IMG/VR virus record: IMGVR_UViG_3300045974_000102
Location: 51,883-115,882 of that record
Strand: one strand, 5' to 3'
DNA from: a virus
DNA: 64,000 bases
Below the pieces are notes generated by a model. That model did not search any database and was not told where the DNA came from. It worked only from the letters and a program-made list of their open reading frames with translations. Shown here one piece after another: positions 48,561 to 63,724 of the stretch (within the stretch, counting starts at the first letter, position 1; each line of letters starts with the position of its first letter). Position numbers and translations under genes: made by a program.

Positions 48561-48562
48561 CT

Positions 48563-49033: not shown

Positions 49034-49071
49034 CAGTCACTCCCGCCAGACTGTCGTGAGATAGACTGTTA
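49031..49071 (+). terminator. Inverted repeat, possible terminator or processing hairpin
   Basis: TAACAGTC (49031-49038) and GACTGTTA (49064-49071) are perfect complements around 25 bases that themselves contain AGACTGTC. The repeat overlaps the stop codon of the preceding gene. Followed by GTTGTTATAAG, not a clear T-run. Confidence 0.4.
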
Positions 49072-49139
49072 GTTGTTATAAGCAGTTTTGCCCCGAAACC
49101 GTGGCCATCATCAACCAGTTGTCCACAGGAGGACACACC

Positions 49140-50087
49140 ATGAACGCAATCGAGAAGTTGATCCAGGCAGCAGCAATCGCAGCTACTTCGGTAGCCGCAC
49201 AGGCCATCACGGCCAAGCAGAACCAGATCATCGCTGAAGATGCGGTGGTTAATGCTGAAGGGCGGAAGTTCGCTTCCGCTATGACCGCCAATGTGGCGGC
49301 ACCTATTAAGCGGGACCTGCTTGAGAAGCAGGGCAACGCTTTGGACTTGGCATTCGAGAAGCTCGATGCTAAGACTGTGGGCACCACTAACGCCATCGAG
49401 GCGTTGTGTGTGTTCATCCGCAATGGGAATGCCAGCTTGAAAGAGCTGGATGCCTCTCGTGTGCAGGTGGGTACCGCACTGAGCTCTGCTGCCATTAAGG
49501 TAGTGGAGGCGTCCAACCCGTCTTATCGGAAGTATGACTTCAGCACCCAGACTGCCTTGAAGGAGAAGGCTGTCAATATGGTGCCTGAACTCAAGGCATT
49601 GTCTGTCCTGAAGAATGAGCTCGATGACGAGCGTGCTAAGACCGTTGAGTGGGTACTTGTGTTCGAGGGCAAGCTCGTAAGGGCAACTGCAAAGCTCAGG
49701 TATCTCGTAGTTGAGTATGAGGCACTGGGTGAGGAGTGCGTGTTCGAGTCTGAGGACATTCAGGCTGCTCTTTCTGAAGTGCCCTTGCCTTGGGGTCTGG
49801 GTGCATTCAGGTGGAACCTGAGCAACAAGTTTGAGCTGTGTGCTCATACGGTTAAGTCCATCAGGGACAAGATCAAAGCCGCTAAGGAGCGGTCTGCCAA
49901 GGAGCGCAAGGCTCTTAAGGCTGCTGCTATTGAGGACATGGCTACAACTAAGGTCGTCTTCTCTGAAGATGACGCTGTTGTGCATCTGGCAGATGTACGG
50001 GCACTCCGCGCTCTTAAGGATGCTGCACGTCCGTCTCAGCGCCGGGTGACTGCTCGTCAGGTCGAGCAGGCCCGTCGGGCTCTGTAG
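49140..50087 (+). CDS. Alpha-helical/coiled-coil protein
   Basis: 315 residues from ATG 49140, chosen for SD AGGAGG (an upstream GTG lacks one). Ala-rich helices throughout (KLIQAAAIAATSVAAQAIT, HTVKSIRDKIKAAKERS), one Trp-containing middle (EVPLPWGLGAFRWNLSN), and a basic C-terminus ending RRVTARQVEQARRAL. No family recognised. A soluble, elongated protein is likely. GC-rich, strongly biased codons suggest it is abundant early in infection. Confidence 0.6.
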   Translation: MNAIEKLIQAAAIAATSVAAQAITAKQNQIIAEDAVVNAEGRKFASAMTANVAAPIKRDLLEKQGNALDLAFEKLDAKTVGTTNAIEALCVFIRNGNASLKELDASRVQVGTALSSAAIKVVEASNPSYRKYDFSTQTALKEKAVNMVPELKALSVLKNELDDERAKTVEWVLVFEGKLVRATAKLRYLVVEYEALGEECVFESEDIQAALSEVPLPWGLGAFRWNLSNKFELCAHTVKSIRDKIKAAKERSAKERKALKAAAIEDMATTKVVFSEDDAVVHLADVRALRALKDAARPSQRRVTARQVEQARRAL

Positions 50088-50111
50088 TCTATTAAGCACT
50101 AGGAGTCTGCA

Positions 50112-50345
50112 ATGAGACTCGTAGTCCATAACCAAATTACTAACCAGCATTTCCTGGCTTGTAATGTTGTTGGTATTGAGATTACACCTTTTAAGGTGAT
50201 CTGCCTAGTTGCTTCTAAGGTGGAGAGTTATACTCTGCCTAAGGACTATACTATTAATGTCTTTGATGAGTCTGCGGCCTTTGGGCTAGGCTTCTTGCCA
50301 TTCCCTTGGGATAAGCGTCCTAATGCTAGTATTGTATTTGAATAG
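50112..50345 (+). CDS. Unknown small protein
   Basis: 77 residues, mainly strands (LVVHNQITNQHFLACNVVG, EITPFKVICLVASKVESYT). It marks the change from GC-rich to AT-rich codon use. SD TAGGAG. No family recognised. Confidence 0.5.
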   Translation: MRLVVHNQITNQHFLACNVVGIEITPFKVICLVASKVESYTLPKDYTINVFDESAAFGLGFLPFPWDKRPNASIVFE

Positions 50346-50357
50346 GAGTATATAGTA

Positions 50358-50564
50358 ATGGTTGCCTCTATTCGTACTGCAACGAAGAATCGTCTTCGTG
50401 AGCATGATCATTATGTTCAGCAAAATGGGGAGCTTAACTCTTTACTTGCTGATCGTGATAGGCTGATGGTCTTGGCTGGCAAGGCTAAGAACAGACCTGG
50501 GCAGTTTCACTACCTCAATCAGGTTGTATTGGTTGAGGAACAAATGAGAGCTATTAAGCTCTAG
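50358..50564 (+). CDS. Unknown small helical protein
   Basis: 68 residues, charged and helical (ATKNRLREHDHYVQQNGEL, LLADRDRLMVLAGKAKNR). Leader AATAGGAGTATATAGTAATG resembles the ATAGTCATG leader set further downstream. No family recognised. Confidence 0.5.
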   Translation: MVASIRTATKNRLREHDHYVQQNGELNSLLADRDRLMVLAGKAKNRPGQFHYLNQVVLVEEQMRAIKL

Positions 50565-50575
50565 GAGGCATTACC

Positions 50576-50704
50576 ATGAGAAATCCTAGTTACATTTACA
50601 AGAATGATTTTGTGTGTCCCTATTGTGGGGGCACCGTTGTATCTGAGGATGGTTACCTGGTGTGTGTAACACCTGGAACCTGTACCTGGACAGAGGAGAT
50701 ATAG
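50576..50704 (+). CDS. Zinc-ribbon micro-protein (42 aa)
   Basis: ATG 50576 behind TAGGAGG. FVCPYCGGTVVSEDGYLVC followed by GTC provides C14, C17, C30 and C36 for one zinc ribbon. Ends 2 bases before the 520-residue gene. Zinc ribbons of this size act in phages as transcription or translation accessory proteins in known cases (general knowledge); here unproven. Confidence 0.6.
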   Translation: MRNPSYIYKNDFVCPYCGGTVVSEDGYLVCVTPGTCTWTEEI

Positions 50705-50706
50705 TC

Positions 50707-52269
50707 ATGAGAGCAAAGCATTTTCCGGTTGACATTGTTGGTTCGCCCGACAGGTATGGTGTCCGTACTGATGTTAACAATCTCTCGTTGTTCGTCAACG
50801 AGGCGTCTGTCAAGATCTCTGTTGGTACCATGGTTTGGTTGCCAAGGACTGACAAGGATAAGAATGGCCTTAGGATCCCTGGCACGGAGCGTCTGTATCC
50901 TGTCAGCCATTATGATGCGCTACTTATTAATTTCGATAGGCCGCGCGTTGTTAGGCGTCATGATCAGTTGTATTTTGGCAGTCATATTGCTTACCTCGAG
51001 TTTGCAATGTCTAATATGTTTGCTATGGTGAAGGCTCAGTATAATGATGAGTCTGTCTTCTACCATGCACTCTATGACATGATGGATGCTGAGTACTATT
51101 GTAAGCCGGGTAAGGATTTCTGGCGTGATAATATGTTCGATACTGTGTGGAGGGCATTCTACTCTACTAATCAGCCTTTCATGAAGGAGTGCCTATTTGC
51201 TGTGGCATATCTTAATGATGAGTGCTACAGGCGTGTCAGGGACATGCTTAAACGTGCTGGGTATAATTCTGCTGCTGATTGCAGCTTTATATTGGCATGT
51301 CATAAGCTTGGCTATGATATACAGCCTGGATGCACTAGGTATGATATAGTCAGAGCTCTTGAGGCTATTTGGCTTGAGCGTGTGTCTAAGCGTGCACATA
51401 TACCTAACGGCAAGGTTAAGTCTGTAGCTGAGTATGATAATTGGAAGCGTAATGGTTATAACTTCCTTGAGCAGCGTCAGGTAGATGAGCGTATTCTTGA
51501 GAATGCCTATTTTGGTAACATTGAAGATGTCATTGCCAATCATTGGGCATATGGAGACTATATTCAGACTGGGCGTGTATTTATCTACAGATATGAGGCT
51601 GGCATCATGCCTGATGAGGGTGATACATTCCATACGTGGGATAAGTATAAGCAGGTTGCTCTTGCTAAAGAGTGGTGGGCACGTGATATATCTATTGACG
51701 ATCTACTTGATCGTGCTAATGCCAATTATTATTGGTTTAGCCATGGTGCATCTGTGCCTATGAAGCATACACTCATTGAGATCTTTAGAGCTTATGAGCT
51801 TGAGATTCAGTGGGCTAACTATATTAATCAGGATGATGAGGATGGCTCTAAGGGTGAACTGGATTATCAGTATCCTCGTATGGAGGATAGTGACTTTGTT
51901 CACCCTCTTTACACTAGCTACTTAGATCCTCCTCAGCCAGGCTTTGATGAACCAAAATCTAGTATTGGTGGTCAGGCATCAGCAAGCTTTCCTATGGATC
52001 GCTTTGATGAGCTTGAGAAGGAGCACATGGGCGATTTCGAGAAGGGCACTGGTATTTATAATCCTGATTTAATAGCTCTTCAGAAGCAGGTGTTTGATGC
52101 TGTGCCTGTTATCAAGCCCACTGATGTTGAGCATGTGTGGATATCCCTTAGTGGTAAGTATTACTGGAGTGATGAGACTTCCGCTCTTAGTGAGCCTTAT
52201 GCTACTAAGGAAGCTGCTGTTGAGGCACTCAATGCTTATGTTGAGTGGCTTAATGAGGTTCCCTTTTAA
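50707..52269 (+). CDS. Large protein paired with the RNA polymerase-like gene
   Basis: 520 residues from ATG 50707 (leader GAGATATAGTC). No known domain. N-terminal 70 residues are strand rich (MVWLPRTDKDKNGLRIPG); the middle is helical with many Tyr/Trp/Asp; the C-terminal 45 residues (HVWISLSGKYYWSDETSAL, then EAAVEALNAYVEWL) form a small repeat-like domain. Residues 418-426 read SSIGGQASA, identical to residues 320-328 of the polymerase-like protein encoded two genes later but with different codons. It may be a polymerase partner or share a binding or processing site with it. Confidence 0.55.
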   Translation: MRAKHFPVDIVGSPDRYGVRTDVNNLSLFVNEASVKISVGTMVWLPRTDKDKNGLRIPGTERLYPVSHYDALLINFDRPRVVRRHDQLYFGSHIAYLEFAMSNMFAMVKAQYNDESVFYHALYDMMDAEYYCKPGKDFWRDNMFDTVWRAFYSTNQPFMKECLFAVAYLNDECYRRVRDMLKRAGYNSAADCSFILACHKLGYDIQPGCTRYDIVRALEAIWLERVSKRAHIPNGKVKSVAEYDNWKRNGYNFLEQRQVDERILENAYFGNIEDVIANHWAYGDYIQTGRVFIYRYEAGIMPDEGDTFHTWDKYKQVALAKEWWARDISIDDLLDRANANYYWFSHGASVPMKHTLIEIFRAYELEIQWANYINQDDEDGSKGELDYQYPRMEDSDFVHPLYTSYLDPPQPGFDEPKSSIGGQASASFPMDRFDELEKEHMGDFEKGTGIYNPDLIALQKQVFDAVPVIKPTDVEHVWISLSGKYYWSDETSALSEPYATKEAAVEALNAYVEWLNEVPF

Positions 52270-52284
52270 TAGGGAGATATAGTC

Positions 52285-52782
52285 ATGAGACAACCAATAT
52301 TAGGAATGACTTGTAAGGGTCAGCCTGTGTATAATATGGGCTCGACTTTTAAGCTCTCAGTTGTTGATGGCCTTCTTACAACCTGGACTGAGTCCTTTTA
52401 TGTTCTCAAGGACAGTGTTGAGTGTGAGAATAATTATCAAGTTGTTCAGCCTGGCGTCTGGTCTTCATATGGTGAATTAGTTGTTGGTGAAGTTAATGGC
52501 AAGTTCTGCATTTGCTGTCCTTCTTTGTCATTCCGTTTGGATGGCTTAGAAGGTAATATGCATGAGGAATTTCATGAGATCAGAAGGTGGGAGACAGCCT
52601 GGCAGCTTGGAGTTTCTAAGCCTGGTGAAAGGACTGTTAGAGGCTTTGGTGAATATGGTTATATCTATTGGCCTCAGGCTTCTCATTATGAGCTTGACTT
52701 TAATGAAGAACTTAATTTTATTGCTGATGGCGGCGAGCCTTGGCGGGGACCTAATGCATATCGTTGGGAAGAGGTTTACTAG
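52285..52782 (+). CDS. Unknown protein
   Basis: 165 residues with leader GGGAGATATAGTC. Strand-rich (GSTFKLSVVDGLLTTWTESF, GELVVGEVNGKFCICCPSL) and many Trp/Tyr. CICC could be a metal site, but no second pair is seen. The next gene begins 2 bases after its stop. Confidence 0.5.
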   Translation: MRQPILGMTCKGQPVYNMGSTFKLSVVDGLLTTWTESFYVLKDSVECENNYQVVQPGVWSSYGELVVGEVNGKFCICCPSLSFRLDGLEGNMHEEFHEIRRWETAWQLGVSKPGERTVRGFGEYGYIYWPQASHYELDFNEELNFIADGGEPWRGPNAYRWEEVY

Positions 52783-52783
52783 A

Positions 52784-53056
52784 ATGGATGCATGGAAAAG
52801 TCATGATAAGTATCCTAGTGTGCAATGTGGAATGTGTGAGAAAGACACACTTGTTGCCACTAAGGTCAGAAAGCGTCGTCGCAAGTATGTATTGTTGTTC
52901 TGTGAGTACTGTGGTGCTATTACGCTTGATGGTCCTGGCTGCTATAGCGTCGAGTTTTATCGTGGTGATTATGAGCCTTCTCTCGCTTATATGGATAAAG
53001 GGAAGGTATATCTTATCGAGAAGAACTGGGATGTTATTCCAGAGGATGAGTGCTAG
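52784..53056 (+). CDS. Zinc-ribbon protein
   Basis: 90 residues from ATG 52784. VQCGMCEKDTLVATKVRKRR and LLFCEYCGAITLDGPGCYSV supply CxxC pairs about 25 residues apart, a treble-clef/zinc-ribbon with a basic connector (KVRKRRRK). C-terminal strand segment. Encoded next to the RNA polymerase-like gene, so a transcription-related role is a fair guess. Confidence 0.65.
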   Translation: MDAWKSHDKYPSVQCGMCEKDTLVATKVRKRRRKYVLLFCEYCGAITLDGPGCYSVEFYRGDYEPSLAYMDKGKVYLIEKNWDVIPEDEC

Positions 53057-53096
53057 TTCTCTTAACTAGCGTATCTAAATTCGGAGGTATATAGTC

Positions 53097-56000
53097 ATGG
53101 CAAAAGAAAACAAGTTGCAACTGGCGTTCAAACCGCTGAACGCTAACGATGTGGGTATTATTACTACCCACGGAATTGCCTTTCAGACTGATGAGAAAGG
53201 CAGGGTGTTCAAGGCTGTTAGCAGCCTGTGGAAGGAAGAGCTTCCGATTCTTGAGTATGTGCCCGAGGTGAAACTCGAGGTGGCGTGTAATACGCCTATG
53301 TATGAAGCTTATCAGCGTGGCTTGCTCACGGGTGATAAGATCTCGTTCTATGCTCTTATGGGCAAGAACTCTGATGATAACTTCATCTTGTATAAACTCC
53401 TTATGGAGTCTCTGTTGTCTGTTGCTATCGGTCCTGATGGTAAGATAGAGGAGAGCAAGATGAAGTATCCACTCTACAATCCTAAGAAGAAGCACGGGTA
53501 TGTGTGCTGTGGATCTCGTCAGGCCATGATCAATATGTTTGGCTCTGATGTTCTTGGTGCTAGTGATAATCCGTTAAAGGTATTTCCACTGGTATCTGGT
53601 AACTCTGCATTCGTTTATGATGCTGAGACTACTGAGGAGTGGAATGGGCATGCACCTAGTATGCTTAAGGTGCTCATTACTGCTGAAGAGTATCTTCATG
53701 AGCATCCTGTTGCTCCTGGTTGCACCATGTTCCATGATGGTTGTATTCACTGGAAGGTGGGCTTTAAGATTAAGAAGTGGAGTCAGAGGGATACTGATAA
53801 CTGGTTTAGTGTGTTTGGCACACAATCCAGGACTATTATACCTGCTCTTGGTAAGTTCAAGGGTAATAGTGATTCTACTCTTGCATTTGAGACTGCAGTG
53901 CGCTGTGGCTACGAGCATCTGTATGAGCAGGTGGATGGAGTCGCTAGTATCTCTGTACTCAAGAGCTGGCCTCAGGACTGGAAGCCTGGTCAGATCGTTG
54001 AGATACCTATGAACAATTTCCGTATTGTTCAGGCTAAGGTATCTGACGGCAATAGTTCTATTGGTGGACAGGCTAGTGCTAGGCTGGACTTTAAGTCCAC
54101 TGAGGCCTTGTTGCGTGAGCATGGTGCTCATGAGCGTGCTAAGATACTCCGTGATGCTATTAGGGGTAAAGCTAGTGCTTATCAGCATATTTTAAAGGCT
54201 GATAAAGACAATACACTGGGTGATGCTGTTAAAGAATACATCCAGTATCTTGCCTTTGCATCTGATGATGGCCAGGGTGACTGGCAGTGTCCGATGTATG
54301 AGAGTGCATGGAATCATGCTATGGCACGTATGTACTCTTATTATTTCCGGAATGTTATCAAATGTCCTACAGCTAAGGTATCTCTGTATGTTCAGGTAGA
54401 TCCTAAGCTGGATAAGGCTGAAGAGAAGCATTTCGATGAGACTGGTGAGCGTGTCAACTTTGTTAAGTGGCCGCGTATCAGGAAGATTCGGTCTATGCTT
54501 AATCAGCACCGGTTCCAGAACGTAGGGCGTAACCCTATGGTTGGTCCTGGTAATGCTCAACAGGTTATACATCTGTTGGATGATAAGGGTGCTCCTGTGT
54601 GGAATCCTACTACAGATACTATTTATGTATCTGCACGTATGCTCTACTCTATGTTTGGAGATGAGGACGGCGATGCCGTCATCATGATTCCTTCTAACAA
54701 TGTAGCATTCCCTGTAGTGCGTAGGCCTGCAGGTGCTAAGAAGAGCTTTGAGTCTAAGTATGTTCAACCTACTGTGCTCAGAGACATGGATCCGTGGGAT
54801 ATTGTTGATAAGCTCATGGATGTTACTTACATGACTGTTCAGGCAGCCATGGATACTGGTTCTGCTGACTTGATCAGTCGCCTTGTTGTAATTACTTATA
54901 AACTCATTCAGCAGCCTGTAAGTGTGTTAACTCTTCTGGAGATGGCTGAGTTCTGTGAACTTCAGATCCAGAAGATGAAAAGGAAGACTGGTAAGACTGC
55001 ACAGTCTGATGTTGGTGCTGATGCGAACCTTCGTGTTCGTGATGCATTTATTAAGAAGTTCTGGAAGAAGGGCAAGCTCAACCAGGGCACTTATGCACCT
55101 AAAGAGCATATCCTTCTTTGTAAGAATGCTGACCTTAAGGGTAATCCTAAAGAGAGCTCTGTGATGTCTCGTATTATCTTTAAGCTCGCTAATATGATTC
55201 CGTTCGATAGAACGGTGCCACATCATGTTGTGTGGGATGTTTTGCAGGGCGTTAAGCCCTCTATGGAGCATGCTGCTTCTGATCGTATTCAGAAGTTCTT
55301 TGCAGCACGCTGGAATGCTCTTGTGCCATACATCAATTCTGGTGGATGGACTTATGTGGTGCCTAGTGTGCCCACTGAAGAGCATAAGCTTTGGGCTGCT
55401 AAGAAGCATCTGCTCAACAAGAATCTTGTTGGTATGTCTGATACTGATATTATGGCTCTTGCTATTACGGAAGGCTTTGATGCTAGCACTTTGGTTGCAT
55501 CTCGTCGTCCTCGTATAGATGACGTTGAAGCTGCTATCCAGGCTAATGGTTTTACTCTCATGGATTATACCAATGAAGAGCTCAAGGATATGATGGATAC
55601 CTGGGTTCCATTTGAGTATCCTGGTGAGACTCGTGCTATTGAGCTTAACTATACCATTCCTTTGATTAAGGATGTGGCTAAGTCTATCGTTGAATACTAT
55701 AATCAGTATTCTAGTATAGCTAAGGACATTGAGGATAATTATTCTCGTAGGATTGCATTCTCTATGATTAAAGAGAATATCCGTGTCACTATAGCTAAGA
55801 ATGCACCTGTACCTCCTGAAGAGGGCTGGGTGCGTGATCTTTGGGGCATGACTCCTTTGGATTACTACTATCGTGCAGTTCTCTGCCGTATTGGTAGTCA
55901 GGGCTTTGGTCTTTGGACCAAGAAGCCTGATCTTGAGAGTTCTGTGCCTGTTGAGCATCAGAAGCTCAATGGTTCACGTGGTGGCTCTGCATTTTGGTAT

Positions 56001-56162
56001 ATGCCTGAGCAGTATCTTGTGGACTATGCACTTATGATGAATCCAGGTAATCCTTGGGCTGAGAAGGCCAAGCTGGAACTCATCGTGCTCAAGCGTAAGA
56101 GTCTTGAGGCTGAAGCTCGTCGTGGTGAGAATGACGACGACGAAGAGAACGTAAACTACTAA
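53097..56162 (+). CDS. Putative single-subunit RNA polymerase (YonO/QDE-1/RdRP-like)
   Basis: 1021 residues, SD GGAGG, leader TATATAGTC. Catalytic region: GRNPMVGPGN (R478-N486) recalls the RNPxxxPGD of RNA-dependent RNA polymerases. SMFGDEDGDAVIMI carries D522-x-D524-G-D526, the DxDGD that binds Mg2+ in the second double-psi barrel of all multi-subunit and YonO/QDE-1-type enzymes. Beyond it, QAAMDTGSADLI and LEMAEFCELQIQKMKRKTG parallel the helical stretch ending in AVDxxKTG of that family. The N-terminal 470 residues would hold the first barrel; I see no clear basic motif there. The tail ends in an acidic EENDDDEEN-like run. Probably transcribes phage DNA for middle or late genes. Alternatively an RNA-directed enzyme. 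Confidence 0.75.
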   Translation: MAKENKLQLAFKPLNANDVGIITTHGIAFQTDEKGRVFKAVSSLWKEELPILEYVPEVKLEVACNTPMYEAYQRGLLTGDKISFYALMGKNSDDNFILYKLLMESLLSVAIGPDGKIEESKMKYPLYNPKKKHGYVCCGSRQAMINMFGSDVLGASDNPLKVFPLVSGNSAFVYDAETTEEWNGHAPSMLKVLITAEEYLHEHPVAPGCTMFHDGCIHWKVGFKIKKWSQRDTDNWFSVFGTQSRTIIPALGKFKGNSDSTLAFETAVRCGYEHLYEQVDGVASISVLKSWPQDWKPGQIVEIPMNNFRIVQAKVSDGNSSIGGQASARLDFKSTEALLREHGAHERAKILRDAIRGKASAYQHILKADKDNTLGDAVKEYIQYLAFASDDGQGDWQCPMYESAWNHAMARMYSYYFRNVIKCPTAKVSLYVQVDPKLDKAEEKHFDETGERVNFVKWPRIRKIRSMLNQHRFQNVGRNPMVGPGNAQQVIHLLDDKGAPVWNPTTDTIYVSARMLYSMFGDEDGDAVIMIPSNNVAFPVVRRPAGAKKSFESKYVQPTVLRDMDPWDIVDKLMDVTYMTVQAAMDTGSADLISRLVVITYKLIQQPVSVLTLLEMAEFCELQIQKMKRKTGKTAQSDVGADANLRVRDAFIKKFWKKGKLNQGTYAPKEHILLCKNADLKGNPKESSVMSRIIFKLANMIPFDRTVPHHVVWDVLQGVKPSMEHAASDRIQKFFAARWNALVPYINSGGWTYVVPSVPTEEHKLWAAKKHLLNKNLVGMSDTDIMALAITEGFDASTLVASRRPRIDDVEAAIQANGFTLMDYTNEELKDMMDTWVPFEYPGETRAIELNYTIPLIKDVAKSIVEYYNQYSSIAKDIEDNYSRRIAFSMIKENIRVTIAKNAPVPPEEGWVRDLWGMTPLDYYYRAVLCRIGSQGFGLWTKKPDLESSVPVEHQKLNGSRGGSAFWYMPEQYLVDYALMMNPGNPWAEKAKLELIVLKRKSLEAEARRGENDDDEENVNY

Positions 56163-56168
56163 CCAACC

Positions 56169-56196
56169 AAGGGCCCTGGCTTAGGCTGGGGCCCTT
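56169..56196 (+). terminator. Hairpin after polymerase-like gene
   Basis: AAGGGCCC (56169-56176) and GGGCCCTT (56189-56196) are 8-bp perfect complements, loop 12. Next bases AACTACAAGG lack a T-run, so either a weak terminator or an RNA stability element. Confidence 0.5.
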
Positions 56197-56214
56197 AACT
56201 ACAAGGAGACTCTT

Positions 56215-56274
56215 ATGAAGATGCAGAAGCTTTGGTGGAAGCTTGAATCTCTTAAGGACAAGGGGAGGCATTAG
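56215..56274 (+). CDS. 19-residue micropeptide
   Basis: ATG 56215 behind AAGGAGACTCTT, product MKMQKLWWKLESLKDKGRH, a basic amphipathic helix with two Trp. Its 3' end contains the GGGGAGG used as ribosome site by the next gene, so translation may be coupled. Short length limits confidence. Confidence 0.5.
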   Translation: MKMQKLWWKLESLKDKGRH

Positions 56275-56276
56275 TA

Positions 56277-56615
56277 ATGTCTAGATCTACTACTAATATC
56301 AGGAAGAGAGTTAGAAGGACTACTCTCTGGTTAAAGAAGGCACCTGCTGCTGTTAATACAGTGGTAGGACCGTATGCTTACCTAGGTACAGTATATGCTG
56401 CTGTATTGCCACGTATTGGTCAGATCTGGCGTTTGCTAGAGATTGACTATGTAGTAGTGGCATTTGAGTTTGTTGATTATACTAGTCAGGATGATAGGAA
56501 TAATCAGCAGCTCTATAATGTAAGAGTTAAGCTCAAGGCAGATATAGATCTGTTCTTTGAGCGTTATGGCAATCAAGAGCCTATGGAAGTCTTAGACTAC
56601 GATTGGAGTAAATAG
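56277..56615 (+). CDS. Unknown protein
   Basis: 112 residues. Basic N-terminus (TNIRKRVRRTTLWLKKAP), hydrophobic middle (VVGPYAYLGTVYAAVLPRIG), then strand/helix. May touch the membrane, but no clear span. Next gene begins 2 bases after its stop with leader AAATAGTC. Confidence 0.5.
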   Translation: MSRSTTNIRKRVRRTTLWLKKAPAAVNTVVGPYAYLGTVYAAVLPRIGQIWRLLEIDYVVVAFEFVDYTSQDDRNNQQLYNVRVKLKADIDLFFERYGNQEPMEVLDYDWSK

Positions 56616-56617
56616 TC

Positions 56618-57058
56618 ATGAGAAAGAAGCAGTCTGATAGTTATGCTTTCCATAATCGTGTTGGTAGTCATTCTACTAAGGGTTATGGTGGTGGGCATGT
56701 AGAGGTTCTTCCTCCTGAGTATAAGGCATTGGAGGTGCTTGTTACTACTATACAAGAGCGTATTGATATGCTTAAGGTTAGTCGTGAGGCGGCCTTAGTC
56801 GAGCTTCAAGCTATTAATAATAGGCTTGATAAAGTTCATATGAGTCTTGATGAGTATAGTAGGACTCGCACTAAGAGAGACTTTCTTATCCATCGTTTTA
56901 ATGGTGTTAACGGTCAGTTGACAGATGCCATTAAAAGACTTAAGGTTTCTAAGAATGAAAGCTGGTCTTTCTTATTTACTTGGGTTGCAAGGTATTTGCT
57001 TACCCATGAGGCATTTATGATTGTTGCTGATGAAGTAGAAAGACTCAAGCAACTTTGA
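56618..57058 (+). CDS. Coiled-coil protein
   Basis: 146 residues. Helical middle with heptads (ALEVLVTTIQERIDMLKVSR, ALVELQAINNRLDKVHMSL) and a final aromatic/hydrophobic stretch (SWSFLFTWVARYLLTHEAFM). Charged N-terminus. Its stop TGA overlaps an ATG at 57058 that opens a 10-codon frame described in the repeat entry. Confidence 0.5.
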   Translation: MRKKQSDSYAFHNRVGSHSTKGYGGGHVEVLPPEYKALEVLVTTIQERIDMLKVSREAALVELQAINNRLDKVHMSLDEYSRTRTKRDFLIHRFNGVNGQLTDAIKRLKVSKNESWSFLFTWVARYLLTHEAFMIVADEVERLKQL

Positions 57059-57088
57059 TGTCAGGCCCTTGTAAAAAAGTTGCCTTTT
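57058..57088 (+). repeat. Repeat copy A: ATGTYAGGCCCTTGTAAAAA
   Basis: A 31-base segment nearly identical to 57393-57423. Both start ATG and read M(S/L)GPCKKVAF. Copy A then stops; copy B stays open into the 202-residue gene. Both also fold as GGC-CCTT..AAGG..GCC hairpins followed by T-rich bases. Differences (AAA/AAG, GTT/GTC) are synonymous, but they also keep or strengthen the stem, so peptide or RNA could be the selected feature. Confidence 0.5.
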
Positions 57089-57110
57089 AGGTAGGACTTA
57101 AAAACCTAGG

Positions 57111-57143
57111 GCTCAAGTCTTAATGGCTTGAGCTCTATCTTTT
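57111..57143 (+). terminator. Intrinsic terminator
   Basis: GCTCAAG (57111-57117) and CTTGAGC (57127-57133), loop 9, followed by TCTATCTTTT. Ends the transcript of the polymerase operon. A further TAGGT/ACCTA stem lies just before it (57089-57109). Confidence 0.65.
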
Positions 57144-57189
57144 AAGCCTTATTGTTCTTTCTTTTCAATGGTTTAACTAGTTTAATCCC

Positions 57190-57390
57190 CCAAACTGCGA
57201 ACTGCATCGTAGTGCATGTATTGTCGTGCTATCCATGATGACGGTGTTATGCCTTTAGCGGTTTGTGCTATCTGTCGAAGGATATGGTTGATACCATACA
57301 GCTTTCAGCCGAAAGCGACGTTAGACGGTAACGTCTTATAGGCCCGGAACATAGCGAGGGCTAGTTTTATGGTATATATCTGTATCTGAT
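57190..57390 (+). ncRNA. Candidate structured non-coding RNA
   Basis: No supported gene. From 57283 four near-contiguous stems follow: TATGGT/ACCATA (57283-57298), GCTTTC/GAAAGC (57301-57316), GACGTTA/TAACGTC (57317-57335), TAG-CCC/GGGCTA (57339-57363), then TTTT (57365-57368). Upstream are two GTGCTATC copies (57226, 57265). The tight succession is not expected of a promoter region or spacer. Could be a regulatory sRNA or a cis-acting leader. No tRNA shape and no riboswitch I know. Confidence 0.5.
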
Positions 57391-57392
57391 TC

Positions 57393-57423
57393 ATGTTAGG
57401 CCCTTGTAAAAAGGTCGCCTTTC
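57393..57423 (+). repeat. Repeat copy B
   Basis: Second copy of the 57058 segment. Stem GGC-CCTT/AAGG-(TC)-GCC then TTTCG. Opens a frame that continues in phase into the gene starting at 57498; it has no SD, so it is probably leader RNA rather than an N-terminus. Confidence 0.5.
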
Positions 57424-57497
57424 GTGAGTGTCGTGCTATCGTTGAAGGACCTGCTAGTCTATCGGCAGGATACTATAGCGGAAAAAGGAGAAACATC

Positions 57498-58106
57498 ATG
57501 GCAGCACGTGCCACAGAAACACCCGTAGCACCGACAGAACCTGTAAAGGAATTGTCCCCCGGCCTGGCTCCACTCAAGCATTCCAGTCAGACGTCTTCAC
57601 ACGTCTATGTTTGCGGCCCTATCACCAGGGTTGGCGTAACGGACTGGCTCGACGAGAGCGAAAAGGAAATTACCGGGCAGACTCTCCAGGTTAGTCTGGA
57701 GGGTGGCTGGAGCTTTCGGATAAACGAAGGCGAACAGATGTATGCAGCCTTCGACAAGTACATCCGGGCGGGTTGGATGTGCGAGTTCATTGCTGGTTCT
57801 GTTAAGACCAGCACGTCCACCAAGGACAATGAAACCGATACCGGCTCCACGTATCAGACCAAAACCGACTATCACAACTGCAGCGCAGTGCGGATTCTGC
57901 AGATGATTCCGCCTGAAGTCCCGGAAGTAATCCGTAACCTGGAAGAGATCATGAAAGCGGCTGGTATCGACATCCCGGCACCGTTGCGCCATGTCTCTAA
58001 AGTCAGCACCTACGGCAAGGGCAAGCCTGCAGCGACAGGTCCTGGGACCATGGACAGGTCGAGTTTAACGCCTGTAAATGCGGCTGTAGCAGCCCCTCCA
58101 GGGTAG
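57498..58106 (+). CDS. Unknown soluble protein with GC-rich codons
   Basis: 202 residues from ATG 57498, chosen for SD AAAAAGGAG. Disordered N-terminal 30 residues (Pro/Ala/Glu), a compact middle (QVSLEGGWSFRINEGEQMYA, YIRAGWMCEFIAGSVKTST), and a disordered Pro/Ala/Gly end. The core is small, strand-rich and could be an OB-like fold, but no motif supports single-stranded-DNA binding. GC-rich, biased codons stand out from both neighbours and suggest strong expression. Followed by an 11-bp stem. Confidence 0.5.
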   Translation: MAARATETPVAPTEPVKELSPGLAPLKHSSQTSSHVYVCGPITRVGVTDWLDESEKEITGQTLQVSLEGGWSFRINEGEQMYAAFDKYIRAGWMCEFIAGSVKTSTSTKDNETDTGSTYQTKTDYHNCSAVRILQMIPPEVPEVIRNLEEIMKAAGIDIPAPLRHVSKVSTYGKGKPAATGPGTMDRSSLTPVNAAVAAPPG

Positions 58107-58117
58107 TAAAAATGGGT

Positions 58118-58155
58118 AGGCAGGGCACTAGATAAGGCAATCTGGTGTCCTGCTT
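58118..58155 (+). terminator. Stem after GC-rich gene
   Basis: AGGCAGGGCAC (58118-58128) and GTGTCCTGCTT (58145-58155) pair over 11 bp including two G-U pairs, loop 16; next bases AACTTAACGATTTCCC are not a clean T-run. The rest of the 172-base gap to 58279 is AT-rich and ends with AGAAAGGAC as the next ribosome site. Confidence 0.5.
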
Positions 58156-58278
58156 AACTTAACGATTTCCCACCTAATCCTTTGTTCTTTGCTATCTTCT
58201 TGTTTTTATTCAGCTTTCTCACCTTCTTAACTACTTCATTCTGATATGGCTTATTAAGCCAGAAAGGACATTTACCTT

Positions 58279-59826
58279 ATGGTATCTAAAGCTAATCTAT
58301 CTCAACACCAACGTCGTCTCATTTTAGACAATGTTGGTGAACTTCCAACTGATTTAATAGCTAAACTACCGAAAGGTCTAAGGAAAGATTATCTACACTT
58401 CTATCCTTATGGTTTTCATGCTTTACCTGATTCACTTGCATTAAGATATAAACTATGTCCTCAGTCTACCAAGATACTGAATGCTTTACAGCAATTACGT
58501 GATGCTTGGGAGTTAAGCAAATTTATTACAATAGACCAAGAGATGTCTTCTCTTATCTGTTCTTACAACAGTGATGAGGAGTTCAATGATTATATTGATT
58601 CTCTTGCTCCTCGTAAGATTACTCGTAAAGGTACTTCGGTACTTATTAAGTCTGATGTAATGTCTCTTATGAATTCTAATGAGTTCATAATTGCTTCTGA
58701 TGTTTCTAGTGTTCTTACTGCTGAGGTGGTTGAGCCTGTTGAGACTGATGTTGCTAGAGCTATTAGATCTGCACGTGAGGTTGCTGATACTATTGCTTTG
58801 TCTTCTCGTAAGGAAATTATTATTGTTCCTGAAACTTCACGAATATATACTTCTCCTGAAGTATTAAGAACTATTGGTGTCAATAGATTTAAATGTTGTT
58901 ATGGTAAGAAAGGATATCCGTCTGAGGTTGAGGCTTCCGATGCTATAGCACATCAGTATGATGTTGCTGTTCGGAAGGGAACTCCTTTGGATGTTGAGAT
59001 CTCTTCTTATCTGTGTCCGTATTGTAGTCTTTGGCATAAGGCTAAGTCTTCAACTGTTGATTGGTTTAAGCGGAACTTTGTTCTTAGTGTACCAACTGAT
59101 TTAAAAGAATATAAAGAGGAAATTGAGATGGCACGTGAAATCCAACGTAATACTGTACTATTATCCCTGCCAGGTAGATGTCTATATGCTATACATATGA
59201 AAGGACATCATGACCTTAAAGGTCTAAGCATCGGGGTTATACTACAAATGTTAAGACAAGGTCTTGCTGAATTTGAGGCTTATAATCCTGCTGAAGGTGT
59301 TTTATGGTTGGATAGACAAGGTAACCGTGCTATTACTCAAGCATATGAAAGAAACATTATGAACAACAGTATTGTTCTTAAAACAAATGCTGTTCCTCGT
59401 ATTCTTGAATTGTTTAATGATTGGAAAAATATTCAGAACAAGTCTTTAGATGTATGTGTAGATGAAACTGTCGAGACGGTTGATGAGCCTGTCGAGACTG
59501 TTGAACCTGAGCGTATCATCAAGTCCGATACTATTGTCAGGTGTAAACCTGCTGTAGTATCAGAGCACGAAACTGAACCAGTAATTACATTCTTTGGTCC
59601 GGTTACACCATATACACCTGTTGATGATAATCTTAAACCATCTGAATCTGATGCTCTTGACTTCTCAACTGTAACTGCTCAACTATTATCTAATGATATA
59701 GAAAAATGGAGAGAAAAATATGAGGCATGTCATAATGTCCTCATGGAGGTATGGACACATCTGGAAAATGGTAAATCTGGTGACTATGTGCATTGTCTAC
59801 TAGATATAAAACTACCATCATTGTAA
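58279..59826 (+). CDS. Unknown protein with zinc-binding module
   Basis: 515 residues. About residues 203-255 contain FKCCYGKKGYPSEVEASDAI and LCPYCSLWHKAKSSTV: a Cys-Cys plus CPYCxxWH zinc module with an A-x-x-A helix between, like short phage proteins that read C..K..y.t..eA......CpxCg.wH. The N-terminal 100 residues are helical. The C-terminal third has Glu/Val/Thr repeats (ETVETVDEPVETVEPE), then a coiled coil. AT-rich codons. Perhaps a nucleic-acid-binding adaptor. Role unknown. Confidence 0.5.
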   Translation: MVSKANLSQHQRRLILDNVGELPTDLIAKLPKGLRKDYLHFYPYGFHALPDSLALRYKLCPQSTKILNALQQLRDAWELSKFITIDQEMSSLICSYNSDEEFNDYIDSLAPRKITRKGTSVLIKSDVMSLMNSNEFIIASDVSSVLTAEVVEPVETDVARAIRSAREVADTIALSSRKEIIIVPETSRIYTSPEVLRTIGVNRFKCCYGKKGYPSEVEASDAIAHQYDVAVRKGTPLDVEISSYLCPYCSLWHKAKSSTVDWFKRNFVLSVPTDLKEYKEEIEMAREIQRNTVLLSLPGRCLYAIHMKGHHDLKGLSIGVILQMLRQGLAEFEAYNPAEGVLWLDRQGNRAITQAYERNIMNNSIVLKTNAVPRILELFNDWKNIQNKSLDVCVDETVETVDEPVETVEPERIIKSDTIVRCKPAVVSEHETEPVITFFGPVTPYTPVDDNLKPSESDALDFSTVTAQLLSNDIEKWREKYEACHNVLMEVWTHLENGKSGDYVHCLLDIKLPSL

Positions 59827-59833
59827 GTAACAA

Positions 59834-59857
59834 AGCACCCAGTTTATACTGGGTGCT
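59834..59857 (+). terminator. Strong hairpin after 515-residue gene
   Basis: AGCACCCAGT (59834-59843) and ACTGGGTGCT (59848-59857) form a perfect 10-bp stem with a TTAT loop. ATCTTCG follows, not a T-run. The 3' arm ends in GTGCT of the GTGCTATC motif. Confidence 0.6.
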
Positions 59858-59877
59858 ATCTTCGAGGGAGACGTAAG

Positions 59878-60090
59878 ATGAATGGCCATAAGGTTAAACA
59901 AGCAAAAGTAATCGGAAGTTTAGCATCCAAGTGCATCTTGGTCTATAACAGTATTAAAATTGGTGAGATTGAATGTGAACCTGAAAATCTTCCTAACACT
60001 GTAGCTATTAATGGTGCTCAGTATGAAATTATTGATGCTGACAAAGTAGGTGTCAAAACCTGGAATCTGTATCTTGAAATAATTCATTGA
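59878..60090 (+). CDS. Unknown small protein
   Basis: 70 residues, alternating strands (SKCILVYNSIKIGEIECEP, AINGAQYEIIDADKVGVKT). SD GAGGGAG. No family recognised; size and strand pattern could fit a small beta-barrel. Confidence 0.5.
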   Translation: MNGHKVKQAKVIGSLASKCILVYNSIKIGEIECEPENLPNTVAINGAQYEIIDADKVGVKTWNLYLEIIH

Positions 60091-60100
60091 AAGGAGAGTT

Positions 60101-60364
60101 ATGGGAAAGACTGTAAGACCTTTTTTCATTGTATATGTTATCTTTGTTGTTTGTTTAGCTTACTTCATACCTTTGGCTTATAAGGAAGGAGTTAAAGTAG
60201 GATATGCTGCTGGAACTTCTGAAATGCGAGCTAGAGAACGTAAGTGTCGTGAGATACTAACTAAAGCTTCCATATTATCTAATCATTCTACTATTACTCG
60301 TATGTTAAAGGATGGTCGACATGGAGGACAAAGAAAAGTTATACCAAGCAAAATTAAAAGCTGA
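60101..60364 (+). CDS. Membrane-anchored protein
   Basis: 87 residues. RPFFIVYVIFVVCLAYFIPL is an N-terminal signal anchor; the rest is basic (MRARERKCREILTKAS) and would be periplasmic or cytoplasmic depending on topology. The next gene starts inside its 3' end in another frame (44-base overlap). That nested arrangement recalls spanin pairs, but the second product has no lipobox, so I do not call it one. Confidence 0.55.
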   Translation: MGKTVRPFFIVYVIFVVCLAYFIPLAYKEGVKVGYAAGTSEMRARERKCREILTKASILSNHSTITRMLKDGRHGGQRKVIPSKIKS

Positions 60365-60458
60365 AGCTGCTATTGTTAAATTAAGAGATAGCCTTGATGC
60401 TTTAGCTGCTGCAATGAAATCTATTAAACTTAAAGTTGATAAGGATAAAAAAGAATAG
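60321..60458 (+). CDS. Small coiled-coil protein (45 aa)
   Basis: ATG 60321 overlaps the previous gene by 44 bases. The product (EKLYQAKLKAEAAIVKLRDS, then LAAAMKSIKLKVDKDKKE) is a single Lys-rich helix with heptad hydrophobics. SD weak (AAAGGAT). Plausible oligomerising peptide. Confidence 0.5.
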   Translation: MEDKEKLYQAKLKAEAAIVKLRDSLDALAAAMKSIKLKVDKDKKE

Positions 60459-60486
60459 TGTCGTGCTATCAGTGAAGGAGGTGTGT

Positions 60487-61137
60487 ATGGAACGTATATT
60501 TAGACGTATCATCATGCTCCTCATTGCTGCATGGTGGTGGAGTTTCAGACGTAAAGTCAAAAAGTGGGCGAAATCCAACCGAATTCCTAAAGGAGAAAAT
60601 GGAATTATGAAAACAACACTGAAGATTAAAGGCGTCAATGTAGGCCTGCAATTCTGTGAAGGATTTGGGCCAGTGGCTGCTCGTATGTCATTTGACGAGC
60701 TCAAAGAAATTGCTCCGGCTAAAGATGCTCGCACAACTGTTACCGAGTTCAACTACGGTATCGACGAGTATGAACACGAGCTCGAGATGAGCGAACAGGA
60801 AACCACTGAAACCTATGGTTTCATCCGCGGAAACGACACTGAAATCCGTAAAGGTCTTAAATGGGCCTTCGAAGGCATTGGCAACTTTGTTGCTCCTGAG
60901 CTGAAGAAATGGAGTGACCTCGGCCTCAACCTCGCCACTGCTGCCAACTCTCCGGTTGACGACAAAATCGAAAATGCTGTCAGAGATGCTAAGCGTGTTT
61001 GGGAACGCGAAGCAGAAGACAAAGCATCCGATCTCCGTCGTGCTGAATTCGAACGTAAACAAGAAATCCGTCAAGCTGTTGATACCGCTGTTCTCGAAGC
61101 TCGCATGAAATGGGAAGCTTCCAGTGGTCATCAATAG
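60487..61137 (+). CDS. Membrane-anchored/soluble dual-start protein
   Basis: 216 residues from ATG 60487 behind GAAGGAGG: residues 1-40 include a short membrane segment (IIMLLIAAWWWSF) and a basic stretch (RRKVKKWAKS). An internal in-frame ATG at 60607 has its own SD (TAAAGGAG) and gives a 176-residue soluble form starting MKTTLKIKGVNVG. Codon use turns GC-rich at 60607. The soluble part has a mixed fold then a charged coiled coil (EAEDKASDLRRAEFERKQE). No family recognised. Two isoforms, or a fusion of a membrane peptide with an existing gene. Confidence 0.55.
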   Translation: MERIFRRIIMLLIAAWWWSFRRKVKKWAKSNRIPKGENGIMKTTLKIKGVNVGLQFCEGFGPVAARMSFDELKEIAPAKDARTTVTEFNYGIDEYEHELEMSEQETTETYGFIRGNDTEIRKGLKWAFEGIGNFVAPELKKWSDLGLNLATAANSPVDDKIENAVRDAKRVWEREAEDKASDLRRAEFERKQEIRQAVDTAVLEARMKWEASSGHQ

Positions 61138-61360: not shown

Positions 61361-61456
61361 GTGAAAATAATCTTTGGCTTAATAGTAATCTATTTTATTT
61401 TACTTGTTACAAACGTTATAACTGCTTCACTTTCAAAAAAACCCAACTTTGTATAA
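61361..61456 (+). CDS. Membrane micropeptide (31 aa)
   Basis: GTG start at 61361, SD AAAGGAG. Product KIIFGLIVIYFILLVTNVIT then SLSKKPNFV: a single membrane helix with a short basic tail. One of the series of one-span peptides. Confidence 0.55.
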   Translation: MKIIFGLIVIYFILLVTNVITASLSKKPNFV

Positions 61457-61493
61457 AACGCTTTAGCGTTTACATAAGATTAGGAGGTGCTAT

Positions 61494-61601
61494 ATGATAC
61501 CTTTACGAACAATAGTATTGTTCATCTGCATGATTGTTCATGCTTTACTAAAACCTCAAATTGATAAATGGAACAAAATATGTGAAAGGAGTAGAAAATG
61601 A
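61494..61601 (+). CDS. Membrane micropeptide (35 aa)
   Basis: ATG 61494 after AGGAGGTGCTAT. PLRTIVLFICMIVHALL is the span; the tail (KPQIDKWNKICERSRK) is basic. ATGA overlap with the next gene shows translational coupling. Confidence 0.6.
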   Translation: MIPLRTIVLFICMIVHALLKPQIDKWNKICERSRK

Positions 61602-61792
61602 TATCTTGGGTAATAGCAGCTGTATTATGTTTACAACTGTTTCTCTGGTCTGCATGGACAATACTTATATTGTTCCATTGGGACGAGAAAATCTCAGGTA
61701 ACAAAGAAAAAGAATTAAAAGCTAGTTATATCAATAAATGCTTTATCTTTACATTCGTCGTTTGTTTCTGCGCTTGGCTAGCTATCATATGA
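61598..61792 (+). CDS. Two-span membrane protein
   Basis: 64 residues: SWVIAAVLCLQLFLWSAWTI and FIFTFVVCFCAWLAII with a charged loop (WDEKISGNKEKELKAS). SD AAAGGAG. Its stop overlaps the ATG at 61789. Confidence 0.6.
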   Translation: MISWVIAAVLCLQLFLWSAWTILILFHWDEKISGNKEKELKASYINKCFIFTFVVCFCAWLAII

Positions 61793-61803
61793 AAGGACTT
61801 ATC

Positions 61804-61962
61804 GTGCAAATAATTCTCTGGATTATACTAACATACTTTATCGTTACTTGTCTTGCTGCAGCAGTAAGCTGGTGGAAAACATTAACCATTATCAAAAATC
61901 ATAACGAGTGGGTAAAAACTCAATATGATGATAGTCCTTACACTGTAGTAATCAATATCTAA
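61804..61962 (+). CDS. One-span membrane protein (52 aa)
   Basis: GTG 61804 chosen for SD AAAGGAC; in-frame ATG 61789 overlaps the previous stop and would add five residues. IILWIILTYFIVTCLAAAVS is the membrane helix, the rest is polar (KTLTIIKNHNEWVKTQYDD). Confidence 0.55.
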   Translation: MQIILWIILTYFIVTCLAAAVSWWKTLTIIKNHNEWVKTQYDDSPYTVVINI

Positions 61963-61976
61963 AGGAGGTGCTATCA

Positions 61977-62240
61977 ATGAAGAAAACAATTAATACTAAA
62001 CCCGCTTGGTGGGAGAAGTTCATTAACTTTATCTCTGCTATTTGGCAGTGGATTACAACAAGATTCAAGTCTATGAGACAAGATGTTCGTGAGTTTTATG
62101 AGGACTTACGCTGCGTGTTCAAAAAGCATGGTTGGATTAGCAACACAACCATGATAGCTGGTGCTCTATTCTTCGCTCACTTACTATTTGACTTCATACT
62201 GTTAGGCTTTGCTGCTGTAGGCGTAGCCTCATTGATTTAA
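61977..62240 (+). CDS. Membrane protein with amphipathic N-terminal half
   Basis: 87 residues from ATG 61977 (SD AAAGGAGG then GTGCTATC spacer). Trp-rich amphipathic start (WWEKFINFISAIWQWITTR), charged middle, then a membrane segment GALFFAHLLFDFILLGFAAV. No family recognised. Confidence 0.6.
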   Translation: MKKTINTKPAWWEKFINFISAIWQWITTRFKSMRQDVREFYEDLRCVFKKHGWISNTTMIAGALFFAHLLFDFILLGFAAVGVASLI

Positions 62241-62250
62241 AGGAGATGTT

Positions 62251-62445
62251 ATGGATCGTCCACACTACAAGCCTTTCATTAGGAATAGCCTCTGGAATCA
62301 AGAGCAGCATAACAAATTCGCTATGGCTGCACTCACTGGTATTCTTGCTCGTCCTATAACAAATCCTTTTACAAGTATGAATGAAGTAGTAAAACTAGCA
62401 GCAAACTACGCCGATCTTATGATGATCGAAATGGACAAAGAATAA
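62251..62445 (+). CDS. Small soluble protein
   Basis: 64 residues, SD AAAGGAG. Helical (NKFAMAALTGILARPITNP, EVVKLAANYADLMMIEMDKE). One of few soluble products in this cluster. No family recognised. Confidence 0.5.
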   Translation: MDRPHYKPFIRNSLWNQEQHNKFAMAALTGILARPITNPFTSMNEVVKLAANYADLMMIEMDKE

Positions 62446-62468
62446 CTCTAACAAGAAAGGAGAATGGC

Positions 62469-62774
62469 ATGCATCCTACTCTCAGAGAGGAGTTCTGGAT
62501 GATTCCTATGCCAGAGGCAAACCTTATGGTCATTCCATTAGTTGGCGGACTGTTCCTGTTTATCTGTGCTTGCTGGTGGATAGCGAATCGCTTTAAAGGC
62601 AAGCCGTATATCTATAGTCGAACTACTGATGCTCAACTCGACGAAAAGATGGAACAACTTCATAAGTCACGCAGAGAGCTTCAAGAGCTTTATCAACAGT
62701 CTGGTAATTGGACTCAATTGTCCTACAGACTTAAACATGGCGAGGATATCGCCAAATTGCTTAAATCCCTGTAA
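62469..62774 (+). CDS. Membrane-anchored coiled-coil protein
   Basis: 101 residues. NLMVIPLVGGLFLFICACWW is a membrane segment around residues 18-37; then YSRTTDAQLDEKMEQLHKSR is a charged helix. SD AAAGGAG. No family recognised. Confidence 0.55.
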   Translation: MHPTLREEFWMIPMPEANLMVIPLVGGLFLFICACWWIANRFKGKPYIYSRTTDAQLDEKMEQLHKSRRELQELYQQSGNWTQLSYRLKHGEDIAKLLKSL

Positions 62775-62788
62775 GGGAGGTGCTATCA

Positions 62789-62989
62789 GTGAAGATAATC
62801 CGCTTCATCTTTTGGTGCTTTGTCATGATGCTATTAGTAAGTATACCATTGTCTGTAGTGAGCTGGCTAGGTAGATCTTGGTATATTCTTGTCATAGGAA
62901 TTCCAGTAATGCTTGGACTTGTAGCATCTTACAAGATATTCGGATACCTATGGCGAATTGATAAACCAAATTTCAGAGGAGGTGCATGA
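62789..62989 (+). CDS. Two-span membrane protein
   Basis: 66 residues from GTG 62789; SD AGGGAGG followed by GTGCTATC, same leader as the gene at 61977. IIRFIFWCFVMMLLVSIPLS and YILVIGIPVMLGLVASYKIF are membrane segments. No family recognised. Confidence 0.55.
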   Translation: MKIIRFIFWCFVMMLLVSIPLSVVSWLGRSWYILVIGIPVMLGLVASYKIFGYLWRIDKPNFRGGA

Positions 62990-62990
62990 C

Positions 62991-63278
62991 ATGAACCAAT
63001 TGATGCCAGGTTTGGTTCTTGGTTGCATGATTTACGTAGGGTGGATGGGATTCTACTTCTTATATGTGCCTAAGCGCATTAAGAAAAGTATTGAGTCCTC
63101 AATGCCCTTACTGTTTATCATGGATGTCATGTTGACTGTCCTAGGGACTATTGGCATGTCAGCAGCGAGCGGGACTCTCACTGCGGCCTTTGGTGGGGCT
63201 ACTATAGCCTGCCTTGGCACCATTACCTCACTTGTCCTGAGAGGCAAGCGAAAGTTGTATAACCTTTGTTCAAACTAA
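62991..63278 (+). CDS. Three-span membrane protein
   Basis: 95 residues from ATG 62991 (SD AGGAGG). Segments PGLVLGCMIYVGWMGFYFLY, SSMPLLFIMDVMLTVLGTIG and LTAAFGGATIACLGTITSLV, basic ends. Holin-like in size and topology, but no lysis gene is visible nearby. Confidence 0.5.
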   Translation: MNQLMPGLVLGCMIYVGWMGFYFLYVPKRIKKSIESSMPLLFIMDVMLTVLGTIGMSAASGTLTAAFGGATIACLGTITSLVLRGKRKLYNLCSN

Positions 63279-63288
63279 GGAGTCGTCT

Positions 63289-63387
63289 ATGGATTTCTGG
63301 AATTCAAAAGAAGGACAATTTTCAGGACTTGAGATTACTATAATTCTGGTCTTTATTGCACTTATTGCTTATAAGATATTCAACTGA
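63289..63387 (+). CDS. Membrane micropeptide (32 aa)
   Basis: ATG 63289, SD AAGGAG. Polar start (DFWNSKEGQFSGLE) and a membrane helix ITIILVFIALIAYKIF. The SGLEI just before the hydrophobic run faintly recalls a pilin-type Glu, but the Gly|Phe cleavage context is absent. It sits immediately before the prepilin-like peptide gene. Confidence 0.55.
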   Translation: MDFWNSKEGQFSGLEITIILVFIALIAYKIFN

Positions 63388-63413
63388 ATACATCTCTCAG
63401 AGAGGAGATTAAC

Positions 63414-63500
63414 ATGAAAGGCTTTACACTCATTGAGCTTGTCGTTAACATTGCTACAACTGGCTTTGTTGCTGCATGTCTCTACATACTCTTCACTTAA
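63414..63500 (+). CDS. 28-residue type IV prepilin-like peptide
   Basis: ATG 63414, SD AGAGGAG. The product starts MKGFTLIELVVNIATTGFVAA and ends after seven more residues. M-K-G|F-T-L-I-E-L is the exact prepilin peptidase (PilD/GspO) site: Gly -1, Phe +1, Glu +5, basic residue before. NIATTGFVAA aligns with the IAIIGILAA of true pilins. Real pilins and pseudopilins continue for 80-150 residues with a globular head; here the frame stops (TAA 63498) at the end of the transmembrane helix. It would enter the membrane, be cut and methylated, and could occupy the pilus base, pilin pool or peptidase. Not a truncated gene remnant by appearance: own SD, own stop, tight neighbours. Confidence 0.8.
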   Translation: MKGFTLIELVVNIATTGFVAACLYILFT

Positions 63501-63511
63501 AGGAGCATATC

Positions 63512-63724
63512 ATGTTTATATTCGAAGGTTTCATAGTTCTCTTCGTCCTTGCCTTTGCATTTTGCTGGGCCATGGGTTGGTCAAGTTCATTGAGCGTTAT
63601 TGCTATCGGTACGCTCATGCTCATCCTCATCAGTGCTATCAGGGAGTTGGCACTCTACTTCATATCGAAAGGAGAAACAGAAAATGGCATGGAAACTGAG
63701 GAACCCGTTCGTGCGGGAGCCTGA
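63512..63724 (+). CDS. Two-span membrane protein (70 aa)
   Basis: From ATG 63512 (SD AAAGGAG). IVLFVLAFAFCWAMGW and SSSLSVIAIGTLMLILISAI are membrane segments; the C-terminal 20 residues are polar (ETENGMETEEPVRAG). Its 3' end overlaps the next gene by 41 bases in another frame. Confidence 0.55.
   Translation: MFIFEGFIVLFVLAFAFCWAMGWSSSLSVIAIGTLMLILISAIRELALYFISKGETENGMETEEPVRAGA

Follow-up and report, generated by a model that had tools for sequence, protein, structure and literature searches.

We analyzed a window of 64,000 nucleotides from a viral record (IMG/VR IMGVR_UViG_3300045974_000102, positions 51,883 to 115,882 of that record). On the + strand of the window, an open reading frame at 63414..63500, stop codon included (ATG at 63414; TAA at 63498-63500), encodes a protein of 28 amino acids, MKGFTLIELVVNIATTGFVAACLYILFT. 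A Shine-Dalgarno sequence, AGGAG (63403..63407, + strand), is located 6 nt 5' of the start codon. The protein begins with a complete class I prepilin start: a short, positively charged leader that ends in glycine, with Phe at +1 and Glu at +5 (K-G|FTLIE, with Gly at -1). By this motif, the leader would be just three residues, M-K-G (63414..63422, + strand), with cleavage predicted after the glycine, and the codon for Glu +5 of the predicted mature protein is at 63435..63437 (+ strand). Among the MKGFTL pilins of bacterial genomes, MKG is the only possible start in 42 of 115 cases, so a three-residue leader is no defect. Previous work has established that prepilins need Gly -1, Glu5, and the helix that follows in order to be processed and to dock as subunits.

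The rest of the protein is a single predicted transmembrane segment (maximum Kyte-Doolittle hydropathy of 2.10 over 19 residues), which includes the sequence GFVAA at positions 14-18 of the mature protein. The reading frame ends after mature residue 25, and the globular C-terminal head is absent. Downstream of the ORF, no frame contains head-coding sequence. (We considered a split pilin with its head in another frame, and dropped the idea because no such head was seen among the frames of the window.) A preliminary description of this locus had read the product as a prepilin leader plus the N-terminal helix of a pilin and nothing more, with Gly -1, Phe +1, Glu +5, and a G-x-x-A-A motif. Its coordinates, strand, and translation are exact, and all of these residues are present. 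The helix also has polar residues that are unusual in pilins (N9, T12, and T13), and it lacks Pro22. Glu5 is followed by Leu6, hence the protein does not fit the criterion for Flp/Tad pilins (Glu5-Tyr6 in the processed N-terminus).

In a search of Pfam, the only family that matched was the N-terminal methylation motif (N_methyl, PF07963), which aligned to residues 2-21 (E = 5.9e-4). The score of 19.7 bits falls short of the curated cut-off (21.2) by 1.5 bits. The protein also matched phrog_13280 (E = 5.6e-4).

The ORF belongs to a run of small genes on the + strand (61361..63724), most of which encode membrane proteins and have strong ribosome-binding sites. The virion genes (portal, terminase, and sheath families) are on the - strand. 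Immediately upstream (63289..63387, + strand) is a gene for a 32-amino-acid single-pass membrane protein, MDFWNSKEGQFSGLEITIILVFIALIAYKIFN, with no family match. Its sequence GQFSGLE is reminiscent of class III pilin-like signals (GQxSxE), but with the glutamate at +6; it is possibly a second mimic, or else a chance resemblance. Downstream, a gene for a 70-amino-acid membrane protein (63512..63724, + strand) begins 11 nt past the stop codon of the headless prepilin, and its own ribosome-binding site (AAGGAG) overlaps that stop codon.

This cluster is near the right end of the 115,882-base record, which is a contig from a divergent myophage. Its large terminase subunit (TerL) is about 28% identical to those of Acinetobacter phage ME3 and Moorella phage MTATph1, and the nearest TerL relative in IMG/VR is a single 5.2-kb fragment (56% identity). 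We found no relatives of the neighboring proteins of 101 and 1021 amino acids, no match by blastn between this end of the window and phages, no match to the pattern GFTLIELVVN outside of this phage, and no tRNA in the window that might hint at the host. The early region at 46997-61137 is also very divergent: ten + strand proteins were scanned, including those of 1021 and 535 amino acids, without any PHROG match, and searches of early-region proteins against PHROGs and Pfam gave no informative match.

Could such a short ORF arise by chance? It is the only prepilin-type ORF across the 115,882-base record. In random genomes of equal size (about 116 kb) and composition, generated by an order-2 Markov model, we would expect 0.025 such ORFs per genome with a strict motif or 0.175 with a loose motif, and these expectations do not count the ribosome-binding site or the packing of the genes. 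Because the null model gives just 0.025 per genome, a chance origin is unlikely.

We then looked for similar proteins in other phages. When we compared the 28-residue protein to annotated phages with tblastn, we found short ORFs in unrelated lineages. First, T4-like Aeromonas phages encode a headless prepilin of 27-29 amino acids between nrdB and nrdD, which is often unannotated (phiAS5, phiWae14, avDM12-TAAL, Aeh1, AsFcp_1/2, Ah1, and PX29). The peptide from phiAS5 is 67% identical to the protein in the window. A tblastn search with this peptide of 27 amino acids gave no matches, probably because of low-complexity filtering. Between two diverged clades of these peptides, the proportion of synonymous differences (pS) is 0.78-0.83, which is near saturation, while pN is about 0.11-0.16. 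This indicates purifying selection, which was measured in this one group, the T4-like Aeromonas phages. Second, the T5-like Aeromonas phages AhSzw-1, AhSzq-1, and AhP_Mru1 have versions of 37-41 amino acids. (The notion that these T5-like copies lie inside terminal repeats was dropped, as the second place in the BLAST results is probably a terminator hairpin.) Like the protein in the window, the Aeromonas ORFs (Aeh1ORF040c, PX29p038, and those of phiAS5, phiWae14, Ah1, AsFcp, and AhSzw-1) encode 27-41 amino acids with one helix and no head, and are in gene-packed regions; most of them start with MKGFTLIEL. They differ in belonging to unrelated phages with other neighbors: the T4-like copies are flanked by nrdB and nrdD, and the T5-like copies have SPFH and RNA ligase genes nearby. 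Third, scans of IMG/VR for prepilin starts found stand-alone helices of 29-43 amino acids in several unrelated uncultured contigs, with their gene neighbors intact, along with many "mini-pilins" of 45-95 amino acids. (The pattern for these scans was M-x(1-3)-GFTLIE, so the invariance of GFTLIE in the resulting set is partly built in.) All 16 of the headless proteins in our main set (A1) match PF07963 at E = 0.01 or better, and Glu +5 is invariant in this set, which again is partly due to how the search was constructed.

The preliminary description had stated that no phage protein of this form was described. This does not hold, as the annotators of Aeh1ORF040c and PX29p038 had already remarked in GenBank that these proteins resemble the N-terminus of pilin. 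Otherwise, members of the headless form are unannotated in public phage genomes or are in PHROGs of unknown function. We did not find a study of headless phage prepilins in the open-access literature (subscription journals and preprints were largely outside of our search).

Prepilin-type proteins from phages are also smaller than those from cellular genomes. We applied the same DNA pattern, ATGAARGGNTTYACNYTNRTNGAR, to viral contigs and to bacterial and archaeal genomes, and counted the ORFs that were closed and hydrophobic. The viral ORFs have a median length of 70 amino acids, with 7 of 22 at 50 amino acids or less and 18 of 22 at 90 or less (these counts are not independent, since some of the viral sequences are interrelated). 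The bacterial and archaeal ORFs have a median of 165 amino acids, with 1 of 112 at 50 or less and 2 of 112 at 90 or less. Taken together, the occurrence of headless prepilins in unrelated phage lineages, the purifying selection in one clade, and the much shorter length than bacterial pilins with the same motif favor the earlier reading of the ORF as a prepilin mimic.

Besides the headless proteins, many phages encode headed mini-pilins of about 60-95 amino acids, which have G-F-T-L-I-E in common and a pair of cysteines that flank a short region at the C-terminus. An AlphaFold model of one of these has a long helix and a small beta sheet (pLDDT 76, pTM 0.40). Foldseek found no significant match for this model (pLDDT 76) in the PDB or among viral models; the helix alone matches solved pilins. 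The two-cysteine head of this large family has the consensus CIxGYKFVxGxxGxARQIxDExGKGVxC (loci L178, L136, L146, L022, L034, L088, and about 40 others). At three loci, the helix of the mini-pilin is duplicated in tandem, which would lengthen the membrane helix (L166, L225, and L084; ELLITLVIAAI three times or ELLICCAIGGI twice). A tractable example from a cultured phage is the 66-amino-acid mini-pilin of Vibrio phage KVP40 (KVP40.0030; L388, 1977-2177), whose gene adjoins the thymidylate synthase gene.

To see what the mini-pilins are encoded with, we clustered the neighbors of 126 of them. A single partner recurred, a membrane protein of the SPFH type (stomatin/prohibitin/HflKC). Using a profile built from these SPFH neighbors, we found a same-strand SPFH gene within 1.5 kb of 41 of the 108 distinct mini-pilins from phages (mostly headed ones). 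The other 661 kb of the mini-pilin loci gave no SPFH matches, nor did 880 kb around bacterial pilins, and among 75 longer viral pilins just one had SPFH nearby. The sensitivity of the profile is tuned to the neighbors of mini-pilins, from which it was built, but the controls used the identical profile. SPFH-linked loci include L035, L036, L072, L077, L083, L085, L088, L093, L110, L115, L117, L136, L168, L180, L197, L211, and others. (In L110, two different mini-pilin genes, at 10994 and 11253 on the + strand, are in tandem directly 3' of the SPFH gene. Another candidate, the 50-amino-acid gp70 of the pilus-dependent phage DLP3, adjoins an SPFH gene, but its translation ruled it out as a mini-pilin.) The SPFH/Band_7 gene and the mini-pilin look like an undescribed two-gene module. 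This association supports the mini-pilins as a functional class and leaves the gene in the window unexplained.

The ORF at 63414..63500 is, in our view, a genuine phage gene whose product is a headless type IV prepilin that stands alone. We propose that this product slips into the prepilin pathway as a false subunit and blocks a type IV filament, a reading to which we give a probability of about 0.5. The protein would enter the inner membrane as pilins do, with its N-terminus inside, where the host's prepilin peptidase would recognize it, and probably cut it and methylate the new N-terminus. It might then dock, via Glu5 and the helix, at the assembly platform (most likely the PilC/GspF class of protein) or at the base of the filament. 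As it lacks the features for building the wall of a filament, it would be unable to continue or stabilize one, and so we propose that the filament is shut down. The target would presumably be a type IV filament of the host (a pilus, a competence pilus, or a type II pseudopilus), which would be shut down early in infection, and the most plausible benefit is the exclusion of other phages. The preliminary description had suggested that such a protein could poison assembly, compete for the peptidase, or keep out superinfecting phages, and the sequence favors none of these over the others. The recurrence of headless or nearly headless pilins across many unrelated phages suggests that this may be a common way for phages to disrupt the pili or secretion systems of their hosts.

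The SPFH genes that adjoin about 40% of phage mini-pilins count against a role at the pilus, as the partner of these proteins may be something other than the pilus machine. In particular, the prepilin start might do no more than anchor the protein in the inner membrane after processing by the peptidase, or supply a helix that pairs with a membrane complex of the phage, such as an SPFH/HflKC-like scaffold. The target would then be quality control of the membrane, or some other process in the envelope, instead of a type IV filament. The many small membrane-protein genes beside the ORF would also fit this explanation. We nevertheless consider it unlikely for the gene in the window: the 115,882-base record (which may be incomplete) has no Band_7/SPFH match, SPFH genes often occur in phages that lack mini-pilins, and a mere anchor would have no need of the full G-F-T-L-I-E motif.

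Alternatively, the peptide could be a decoy substrate, which would keep the prepilin peptidase/N-methyltransferase occupied and would not act on the assembly platform. Indeed, it contains little beyond the recognition sequence and the helix. But the peptidase normally copes with a very abundant substrate, and therefore a decoy would need very high expression from a single small gene. Also, the part that recurs across phages spans the whole helix and is not limited to the cleavage site. A decoy thus seems improbable.

We have somewhat stronger doubts that the protein is a minor or capping subunit, built into the host's filament to alter how the pilus behaves (for example, its retraction, or the availability of a receptor for the phage itself) without abolishing it. 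The sizes of phage mini-pilins form a continuum from 27 to over 100 amino acids, and the larger ones have small predicted beta heads. A headless protein, though, offers no surface for a new function, and we found no evidence for the pilus as a receptor among the mini-pilin phages that we examined. Finally, it is very improbable that the ORF resembles a pilin by chance, or that it is what remains of a host pilin gene after capture and decay: it is a single copy in one lineage, no close relatives were found, and its Pfam score is below threshold, but these points are set against the low expectation under the null model, the good ribosome-binding site and gap-free packing, the purifying selection on this length class in other phages, and downstream frames with no trace of a head.

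If the ORF does encode a false subunit, then the pilin's own assembly helix is a dominant-negative subunit, and could be a simple and transferable off-switch for pili, competence, and type II secretion. It would also be a clean tool for identifying the helix contacts that pull a pilin out of the membrane. More broadly, and tentatively, it is quite possible that phages at large use a widespread and undescribed class of miniaturized type IV pilins, from headless helices to the two-cysteine-head forms of 60-95 amino acids, to take over their hosts, in many cases with an SPFH scaffold encoded alongside. Such effectors would gain access to the prepilin pathway and cripple type IV filaments from the inside. 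Given the recurrence and the SPFH neighbor, the idea is testable now in cultured Aeromonas phages.

How does the protein compare to known systems? Type IV pilins and pseudopilins (with a PF07963 start) share its leader ending in glycine, Phe1, Glu5, and hydrophobic helix. They differ in having a globular head: precursors with the same motif have a median of 165 amino acids, whereas the protein in the window has about 25 mature residues and is headless. The best sequence match in the PDB is Geobacter PilA-N (domain 1 of geopilin), which is a naturally short pilin (9egp, E = 0.066). PilA-N is a filament subunit, and with a chain of 61 residues in solved structures (2m7g), it has more than twice the length of the protein in the window.

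The phage proteins that are known to inhibit type IV pili either target the motor ATPase or have unrelated folds with which they bind the platform. Tip (from phage D3112) and Aqs1 (from DMS3) block pilus assembly and superinfection, as we propose for the headless prepilin, but they do so by inhibiting the ATPase PilB and do not mimic pilins. The functional precedent would be PfsE (PA0721) of the Pseudomonas filamentous phage Pf4, a protein of 30 amino acids that is located in the inner membrane with its N-terminus inside, binds PilC, and suppresses twitching and superinfection (PMC8764522). Both proteins are phage-encoded, have about 30 amino acids, and have a single inner-membrane helix (predicted, for the protein in the window). 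PfsE relies on an aromatic YxWGW cluster (PMC8764522), while the protein in the window has no tryptophan and has a complete prepilin start instead, so a similar block would be achieved here by mimicry of a pilin.
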